A stretch of 9,715 nt of DNA from Candidatus Sumerlaeota bacterium (GTDB taxonomy: Bacteria; CG03; SLGR01), in NCBI GenBank assembly GCA_007136585.1, contig SLGR01000210.1, positions 1-9,715 on the forward strand, given 5' to 3'. This document shows, one piece after another, positions 6,776-9,466 of this stretch. A program made the position numbers and the translations under genes. Numbering within the stretch: the first letter of the stretch is position 1; every line of letters starts with the position of its first letter. The notes beneath the pieces were generated by a model. The model was given only the letters and a program-made list of their open reading frames with translations. It was not told the origin of the DNA and ran no database searches.

Positions 6776-6852
6776 GCGCCCGTAGCTCAACTGGACAGAG
6801 CGGCTGACTACGGATCAGCAGGTTAGGGGTTCGACTCCTCTCGGGCGTACCA
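6776..6852 (+). tRNA. tRNA-Arg (anticodon ACG)
   Basis: A full cloverleaf can be drawn. The acceptor stem is GCGCCCG (6776-6782) with CGGGCGT (6842-6848); the first pair is G-U. The D stem is GCTC/GAGC. The anticodon stem is GCTGA/TCAGC with loop CTACGGA, so the anticodon ACG is at 6810-6812. The T stem is AGGGG/CCTCT with loop TTCGACT. The discriminator is A (6849) and CCA is encoded (6850-6852). The ACG anticodon reads CGU directly and needs A34-to-inosine editing to read CGC and CGA. The editing enzyme's probable gene starts 49 nt downstream. A run of five T follows the CCA, but there is no separate terminator hairpin. Confidence 0.97.
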
Positions 6853-6871
6853 TTTTTCAAAGGATAAGCCC

Positions 6872-6892
6872 ATGCCGGCGGGTTCCCGGTAA
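6872..6892 (+). other. Possible six-codon leader ORF upstream of tadA
   Basis: ATG at 6872 is preceded by AAAGGA (6859-6864) with a 7-nt gap, the best ribosome-binding site in this interval. It reads MPAGSR and stops at TAA 6890-6892, nine nt before the tadA ATG and in the same frame. The tadA ATG itself has no visible Shine-Dalgarno sequence. This could be a leader giving reinitiation at tadA, or chance; the ORF is too short to judge by coding content. Confidence 0.25.
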
Positions 6893-6901
6893 AAACGGCC
6901 T

Positions 6902-7312
6902 ATGCAGAATCTGGATAAATTTATGAAAGAGGCTCTTTTTATAGCGGAATCCGCCCGGGATGCCGGAGAGATTCCCGTAGGTTCGGTAGTTGTAAAAGAC
7001 GGACAGATAATAGGACGCGGCGCCAACAGACAGCTGAGAGACAGCGACCCCGCCGCGCACGCGGAGATCATTGCCCTGCGTGAAGCCGGAAGAAAACTCG
7101 GGAATTGGCGTCTGGACGGGGCGCTGATGTATTCAACTGTTAACCCGTGCGCCATGTGCCGTGAAGCCATAAGGAGGGCCCGCATTGAACATGTATACTA
7201 TGCCACACCCAAGGCGCGGGAATCCACGCACAGTACGGAGTATACAGCCCTGGAAGGGTATGCCGGCGAGGCTTCGGAACTGATCAGGGGGTGTTTTCAG
7301 AAAAGAAGATGA
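6902..7312 (+). CDS. tadA: tRNA-specific adenosine deaminase (TadA-like)
   Basis: A 136-residue cytoplasmic zinc deaminase of the cytidine-deaminase fold. Known TadA enzymes convert wobble A34 to inosine in tRNA-Arg(ACG). Seen: GEIPVGSVVVKDGQIIGRGAN (22-42 region), the zinc and proton-shuttle motif HAE (H53, E55), and the second zinc motif PCAMC (C83, C86). The C-terminal basic end (FQKRR) is also typical. Odd points: the usual EPC is NPC here (N81), the stretch after the second zinc motif (VYYATPKARESTH) is unlike the common GARD/GAxD version, and the protein is about 30 residues shorter than E. coli TadA (167). A related COG0590 base deaminase is the main alternative, but the neighbouring tRNA-Arg(ACG) favours TadA. 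ATG 6902 gives the usual N-terminal helix. The stop overlaps the next gene's start (ATGA at 7309-7312). Confidence 0.85.
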   Translation: MQNLDKFMKEALFIAESARDAGEIPVGSVVVKDGQIIGRGANRQLRDSDPAAHAEIIALREAGRKLGNWRLDGALMYSTVNPCAMCREAIRRARIEHVYYATPKARESTHSTEYTALEGYAGEASELIRGCFQKRR

Positions 7313-7764
7313 TAATCAGAAAAATTCTTATGATACTCTTTCTTGTTTTAGGGCTGACATCCTTTGCGGCAGGTGTTATATGGAAAGGCGGAAACCCCGG
7401 TCTGTGGTTAATAGTCTCAAATGCGCCCCTGATGATTCTGGTAGCGTTTTTCCTGTACCTGAAGAGCGGTTTTTTTCTTACGGTACTTACCCCGTCTCTT
7501 ATTTTTTTCGGTTTCGGGCCGTTCTTTGTCCACGAGTTCGCGGCAGCTCATATTTTTATGTTTTTTTCCTCCGTGCTGATGCTGGGGGCCGCATCTTATG
7601 TTATTACGGCGCAGATTCTAAGGTTCCGTATTTTAAAGTTATTTATAAGAATGCTGGCAGGTACAGTCCTGCTGGCCGGATTTCTTTTTTTCCGCGCCAG
7701 GTATACTGATACTGAGGATGCCAGGGAGATAGCGAGGGTCGAGAGACGGCTGTTTTTTGAGTAA
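7309..7764 (+). CDS. Small integral membrane protein of unknown function
   Basis: A 151-residue hydrophobic protein that I do not recognise. From ATG 7309 it reads MIIRKILMILFLVLG and shows about four or five likely membrane segments (roughly residues 6-25, 32-50, 53-72, 78-100 and 110-128), then a charged cytoplasmic tail rich in Arg, Glu and Asp ending in RRLFFE. No catalytic motif or known domain is visible. The ATG overlaps the tadA TGA (ATGA), a classic coupled junction. A GTG at 7291 is in frame, but would bury the start inside tadA and put a charged stretch before the first membrane segment, so 7309 is preferred. The Shine-Dalgarno is weak (AAGAAG), in line with coupling. The stop is only 6 nt before tRNA-Ser(UGA). 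Confidence 0.78.
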   Translation: MIIRKILMILFLVLGLTSFAAGVIWKGGNPGLWLIVSNAPLMILVAFFLYLKSGFFLTVLTPSLIFFGFGPFFVHEFAAAHIFMFFSSVLMLGAASYVITAQILRFRILKLFIRMLAGTVLLAGFLFFRARYTDTEDAREIARVERRLFFE

Positions 7765-7770
7765 TCCAGC

Positions 7771-7859
7771 GGAGGGGTGGCTGAGTGGTTTAAAGCGGCG
7801 GTCTTGAAAACCGTTGTGTCCTTTGGGCACCGTGGGTTCGAATCCTACCCCCTCCGCCA
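7771..7859 (+). tRNA. tRNA-Ser (anticodon UGA)
   Basis: A type II tRNA with a long variable arm. The acceptor is GGAGGGG (7771-7777) with CCCCTCC (7849-7855). The anticodon stem is GCGGT/ACCGT with loop CTTGAAA, so the anticodon TGA is at 7805-7807. The variable arm lies at about 7815-7833, and the T arm is GTGGG-TTCGAAT-CCTAC. The discriminator is G and CCA is encoded at 7857-7859. No promoter is visible in the 6 nt between it and the preceding stop codon, so it is probably cut from the tadA-operon transcript or from a promoter inside the upstream gene. Confidence 0.97.
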
Positions 7860-9376: not shown

Positions 9377-9466
9377 GGAGAGGTGCGAGAGTGGTTTAAT
9401 CGGCACGCTTGGAAAGCGTGTGACTCCTCACGGGGTCCGTGGGTTCGAATCCCACCCTCTCCGCCA
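9377..9466 (+). tRNA. tRNA-Ser (anticodon GGA)
   Basis: A type II tRNA. The acceptor is GGAGAGG (9377-9383) with CCTCTCC (9456-9462). The anticodon stem is CACGC/GCGTG with loop TTGGAAA, so the anticodon GGA is at 9411-9413. The long variable arm lies at about 9421-9440, and the T arm is GTGGG-TTCGAAT-CCCAC. The discriminator is G and CCA is encoded at 9464-9466. It reads UCC and UCU, complementing the UGA isoacceptor 1.5 kb upstream. No clear terminator hairpin follows. Confidence 0.97.

Follow-up and report, generated by a model that had tools for sequence, protein, structure and literature searches.

Why does a gene for tRNA-Arg(ACG) lie directly upstream of tadA, whose product is predicted to edit that same tRNA, and is the arrangement more than an accident of one genome? 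The two genes are adjacent in the window, by which we mean the whole stretch of DNA that was analysed (9,715 nucleotides), and which is one entire contig of a 1.88 Mb draft genome comprising 257 contigs and estimated to be 88% complete. The features that matter for the question are these.

6776..6852, + strand: tRNA-Arg(ACG), detected by ARAGORN and Rfam (61.5 bits), with an encoded CCA that ends at 6852
6853..6901, + strand: gap between tRNA-Arg and tadA, 49 nucleotides, with no terminator or promoter-like site
6859..6864, + strand: Shine-Dalgarno-like sequence AAAGGA, 7 nucleotides before the ATG at 6872
6872..6892, + strand: six-codon frame, MPAGSR and stop (TAA at 6890-6892), in frame with tadA
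6902..7312, + strand: tadA, encoding a short, divergent TadA of 136 amino acids in which HAE and PCxxC are kept and LEPC is changed to VNPC
7309..7764, + strand: ORF for a hydrophobic protein of 151 amino acids, with an ATGA overlap with the tadA stop codon
7771..7859, + strand: tRNA-Ser(UGA), in the slot occupied by tRNA-Ser(CGA) in relatives
9377..9466, + strand: tRNA-Ser(GGA), the next tRNA downstream

A sequence-only reading of this DNA had placed a tRNA-Arg(ACG) gene 49 nucleotides before a TadA-like gene, in the same direction and with no terminator between them, and ARAGORN, Rfam, NCBIfam and our scan agree on this description. The anticodon loop of the tRNA is CUACGGA, which fits an A34 cloverleaf with a CUACG(G/A)A loop, and the gene is the single Arg(ACG) gene among the 29 typed tRNAs found in the genome. 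Scans of the gap found neither a + strand terminator nor a sigma-70-like promoter, and the predicted folding of this RNA is equal to that of shuffled sequences (z 0.07). A hidden terminator was rejected on the basis of the empty scan and the z value, and a promoter inside the gap because the scan found none. Two weak promoter matches upstream of tRNA-Arg, each with 9 of 12 positions, are at the level expected by chance.

The shared strand, short gap and lack of a terminator amount to the layout of a mixed tRNA-mRNA operon. A classic mixed operon, thrU-tyrU-glyT-thrT-tufB of E. coli, likewise places tRNA genes directly before a gene for a protein that acts on tRNA. Operons of this type give one transcript that is cut by tRNA processing, whereas joint transcription of tRNA-Arg(ACG) and tadA is something we infer. 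The pair also differs from the E. coli operon in that its protein would edit the very tRNA that precedes it, and in that the gaps are often very short.

The protein encoded at 6902-7312 matches the dCMP_cyt_deam_1 family (3e-29), and TadA is its top-scoring named NCBIfam family (4e-30), with a score of 104.7 bits that falls under the 150-bit cut-off of this model, as do the scores of many other TadA-like proteins in our survey. Its top sequence matches in the PDB are TadA proteins, and the 25 top fold matches of its AlphaFold model (pLDDT 90) are TadA or TadA-derived, with TM values of 0.80-0.92 on the query. The protein is therefore closest to TadA, and not to other deaminases, in both sequence and fold, and a guanine, cytidine or RibD-type deaminase was rejected for this reason. 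The zinc-deaminase core is present (H53-A-E55, P82-C83-x-x-C86 and the conserved N42). Several residues that are nearly invariant in TadA are missing, namely the Glu of (T/L)EPC, the Asp of DPK and the NH motif.

These losses are shared across the order to which the window's genome belongs (6902-7312 and L003-L007): LEPC is changed to VKPC or VNPC, and the DPK aspartate and NH motif are absent. The Glu of (T/L)EPC is replaced by K or N in 6/6 members of the order, and is E in 147/149 other proteins. The DPK aspartate appears to correspond to Asp104 of S. aureus TadA, which is reported to form a hydrogen bond with the ribose of U33 (PMC3711424). Counted from the first aligned position, proteins of the order have 134-135 residues, compared with a median of 151, and are thus ~16 residues shorter. 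Because the missing residues are marks of typical members and do not define the family, we class the protein as a divergent TadA. No other TadA-like protein was found in this genome, which is 88% complete and also has Arg(ACG), and so we predict that the protein deaminates A34 of tRNA-Arg(ACG). The other deaminase match in the genome is a single weak one, within a 386-aa frame consistent with RibD.

The translation start of this tadA is unusual. The sole good Shine-Dalgarno sequence nearby (6859-6864) serves the ATG at 6872 and not the start at 6902. The TadA of a relative (L003) begins MPAGKENKKFM... and its gene is without the stop codon seen in the window. MPAGSR resembles this N-terminus, suggesting that 6872 is probably an older tadA start, with a stop codon now lying within the N-terminal extension; an assembly error is a possible source of that stop. 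Translation of TadA probably begins at 6902, perhaps through reinitiation after the six-codon frame. The idea that this frame attenuates tadA was dropped, since CGG, the single Arg codon in it, is not read by I34, and since the relative lacks the stop.

To what extent is the gene pair conserved? We searched 251 genomes outside the order, mostly one per family, and collected their tadA regions. These genomes were drawn for their best TadA scores, and are not an unbiased sample of bacteria. Counts are based on the 148 genomes (125 families) with at least 250 nucleotides upstream of tadA. Within 250 nucleotides upstream and on the same strand, tRNA-Arg(ACG) was found in 33 of these genomes, whereas it was downstream or antisense within this distance in none of the 148. 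The sequence-only reading had named a lack of enrichment among relatives as the outcome that would count against it; instead, the pair is conserved in the order and also occurs in 28 of the 125 other families, being missing from 97. In the order it is present in all six readable genomes (G000, the window's own, and G001, G003, G004, G006 and G007). In five of them, 17-56 nucleotides separate the tRNA from the first aligned TadA residue; in G003 the distance is 535 nucleotides. Two genomes of the order are outside this count, one whose contig begins inside tadA (G002) and one without a tadA match (G005).

That the genes are chance neighbours, in the window's genome alone, has only the mobility of tRNA genes in its favour. 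The chance that one specific tRNA would lie within 250 nucleotides upstream on the correct strand is ~250/(2 x 1.88 Mb), or 7e-5, and for one Arg(ACG) gene in 2.5 Mb it is ~5e-5 per genome. Fewer than 0.01 genomes with the pair would thus be expected, and the expectation stays below 0.1 even if several Arg(ACG) copies are allowed (all by simple arithmetic). Despite kinship among the genomes, the order-wide pair and its presence in 28 other families, set against <0.1 genomes expected, exclude a chance arrangement, and this survey leaves accident with practically no probability.

The slot upstream of tadA is also specific in its contents. The nearest upstream tRNA lies within 250 nucleotides in 39 cases; it is tRNA-Arg in 38 of them (33 ACG, 2 CCU, 2 CCG and 1 antisense CCG) and tRNA-Cys in one. 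Slots without Arg(ACG) can thus carry another tRNA-Arg, with anticodon CCU or CCG (L018, L120, L137, L200 and L174); that of L174 is the antisense CCG tRNA.

The distribution among families is patchy. For one family in the phylum of G025, all 9 genomes read, from 6 genera, carry the pair, whereas 0/21 genomes of two sister families do; the pair is therefore stable inside families, and is gained or lost between them. A tree of TadA implies 27 changes and was discarded as an arbiter, because it is too weak to separate an old gene order followed by many losses from repeated gains. Patchiness, the 27 changes and the all-or-none pattern in this phylum might reflect co-transfer, in which the pair survives and spreads as a unit because an A34 tRNA-Arg has little value when TadA is missing. 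However, the stability of the pair inside families, and its setting among tRNA-Ser genes and dnaX, resemble those of an inherited neighbourhood, and we noticed no mobile-element genes in the window. Such transfer seems to us decidedly unlikely.

This neighbourhood extends well beyond the pair. Among the 68 nearest downstream tRNAs within 250 nucleotides of tadA, 66 are same-strand tRNA-Ser (53 CGA, 12 GGA and 1 GCU). Further members recur, these being Ser(GCU) and Ser(UGA) upstream, and Ser(GGA) and Ala(CGC) downstream. A downstream cluster of proteins, the tested member of which proved to be dnaX, was detected at 25 loci. Clusters 1 and 3 of the protein neighbours were ignored, since they probably consist of antisense and TadA-like reading frames. 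A locus in an Elusimicrobia MAG (L099, PMCA01000011.1) has the order Arg(ACG)-tadA-Ser(CGA)-Ser(GGA), and named loci in Acidobacteria, Omnitrophota and Planctomycetota have kept Ser and do not have Arg(ACG). The Proteobacteria examined have no Arg(ACG) inside the tadA flanks that were fetched.

At tadA, 26 genomes have both Arg(ACG) and Ser, 40 have only Ser, 6 have only Arg and 74 have neither. The two tRNAs occur together more often than expected (Fisher p 5e-6, with kinship ignored), and the excess of genomes with Ser only over those with Arg only is the reverse of what a rule based on the substrate would predict (sign test p 3e-7). tRNA-Ser is thus beside tadA in about twice as many genomes as Arg(ACG), and tRNA-Ser (CGA or GGA) is not among the known substrates of TadA. 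An enzyme-substrate relationship therefore fails to explain the whole cluster. The sequence-only reading had proposed matched dosage or feedback as the reason for the linkage. The linkage itself holds up, in the order and in the other families, but this reason for it is not favoured by the more frequent retention of Ser.

One rival reading is that selection maintains a shared transcript because it keeps the supply of TadA in step with that of Arg(ACG); with gaps of 2-20 nucleotides, folding or processing of the tRNA could compete with the ribosome at the tadA start, leading to feedback. The upstream slot almost always holds Arg(ACG), which without exception precedes tadA on the same strand, and tadA starts 2-20 nucleotides past the tRNA in many genomes. 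Moreover, 2 of the 9 genomes with the pair in the phylum of G025, both of one genus (g234), have kept Arg at tadA with no Ser in the 1.5 kb downstream, and the six survey genomes with Arg only have no Ser inside 250 nucleotides. However, a tRNA that is not a known substrate is retained twice as often, the linkage is absent from most families and from all Proteobacteria examined, and the second A34 tRNA of the order, Leu(AAG), is unlinked. Also, S. pyogenes edits both of its A34 tRNAs completely in every growth phase (PMC11472039), and TadA is therefore not limiting in that species. We regard selected coupling as possible but doubtful.

How, then, is tadA transcribed? Of the 38 genomes with the pair, five of which come from the window's order, 16 (14/31 families) have the first aligned TadA residue no more than 35 nucleotides past the tRNA, and start codons 2-20 nucleotides after tRNA-Arg are common. 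A gap of this length cannot accommodate a promoter, which implies that in those genomes tadA is read from upstream, on the tRNA transcript. A joint transcript is likely in the window as well, and would be close to unavoidable at gaps of 2-30 nucleotides. Terminator-like hairpins occur in the gap in 7/38 genomes, compared with 0.56 in shuffled sequences, and are convincing in four families (f79, f100, f133 and f172). In f79 and f133, tadA starts within a few bases after the T run, and so read-through would be needed there. The gap terminators suggest that the two genes are uncoupled, or tadA attenuated, in some lineages. At three loci (L128, L129 and L177), a terminator-like hairpin and T run between Arg(ACG) and tadA, with the tadA ATG only a few bases beyond the T run, have a layout like that of a read-through attenuator.

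The explanation that we favour, and consider reasonably probable, is that the pair belongs to an old and widely kept tRNA-tadA cluster in which tadA is expressed by read-through from the tRNA. It builds on the observed gene order, strand, conservation and short gaps, and on the terminator-free gap of the window. The layout of this cluster is [Ser-Ser-]Arg(ACG)-tadA-Ser(CGA)[-Ser(GGA)-Ala(CGC)], in many cases with dnaX next in line. Here and in many other genomes, transcription would most likely proceed from the tRNA-Arg promoter into tadA, and processing of the tRNA ends, with RNase P acting at the 5' end and a 3' nuclease downstream of the CCA, would free the tadA message. Proximity of enzyme and substrate may be helpful, though not demonstrably the cause of the linkage, and the data fit equally well with an old gene order that has simply persisted.

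At several loci (L010, L022, L134, L175, L188, L194, L217, L227 and others), the tadA frame runs ~10-53 nucleotides into the downstream tRNA-Ser, and therefore tRNA processing would remove the tadA stop codon. Since tadA in several lineages starts 2-20 nucleotides after tRNA-Arg and stops inside the next tRNA-Ser, tRNA maturation and TadA synthesis could even be mutually exclusive for each shared transcript, which would amount to an inherent balance between the A34 tRNA and its editor in lineages across bacteria; we think this unlikely.

We found no description of linkage between tRNA-Arg(ACG) and tadA in the literature searched, which covered few subscription journals and is thus weak evidence of novelty. 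Within that literature, the linkage is an undescribed further example of a mixed tRNA-protein operon or conserved neighbourhood. TadA is essential in E. coli. If the linkage is functional, many bacteria would make TadA from the transcript of its own substrate, which bears on how wobble inosine comes to be complete; even as plain gene order, the Arg(ACG)-tadA-Ser unit, retained by so many families, is a useful marker of how genes were arranged in early bacterial lineages. In B. subtilis, the region yaaJ (tadA)-scr-dnaX-yaaK-recR also has tadA near dnaX, as in the 25 survey loci, but the four tRNA-Arg(ACG) genes of this species are elsewhere (trnB, trnE, trnI and trnJ) and are unlinked to tadA (PMC10454642).

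tRNA-Leu(AAG) is present in 7/8 genomes of the order (L271-L278), including that of the window (contig C252:1775-1860), and one genome (G001) has Leu(GAG) in its place. TadA of the order thus probably has two tRNA substrates, and since Leu(AAG) is unlinked to tadA, the linkage would match just one of them. Published work assigns nearly all tRNA-Leu(AAG) genes of bacteria to Bacilli, with Mycoplasma and Prochlorococcus also noted (PMC13249217, 2026). We infer that the order belongs to none of these groups, because its phylum seems small (16 genomes in the collection searched). The tRNA-Leu(AAG), or (IAG), of Lactobacillales is similarly a second A34 tRNA for TadA (PMC13249217, PMC11472039). The order differs from Lactobacillales in its phylum, which is a small one, and in a TadA that is reduced in length and without residues that are nearly invariant elsewhere. 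Leu(AAG) together with a reduced TadA thus offers a separate, non-Bacilli lineage in which to study the gain of a second tRNA.

Downstream of tadA, the hydrophobic ORF (7309-7764) had no match in Pfam and NCBIfam searches. It is kept 3' of tadA at 6 loci in 4 families, and its position between tadA and tRNA-Ser is conserved in the window's order. The Ser slot that follows (7771-7859) seems to have had its anticodon or its occupant swapped; a similar Ser(CGA) is present elsewhere in the window's genome.
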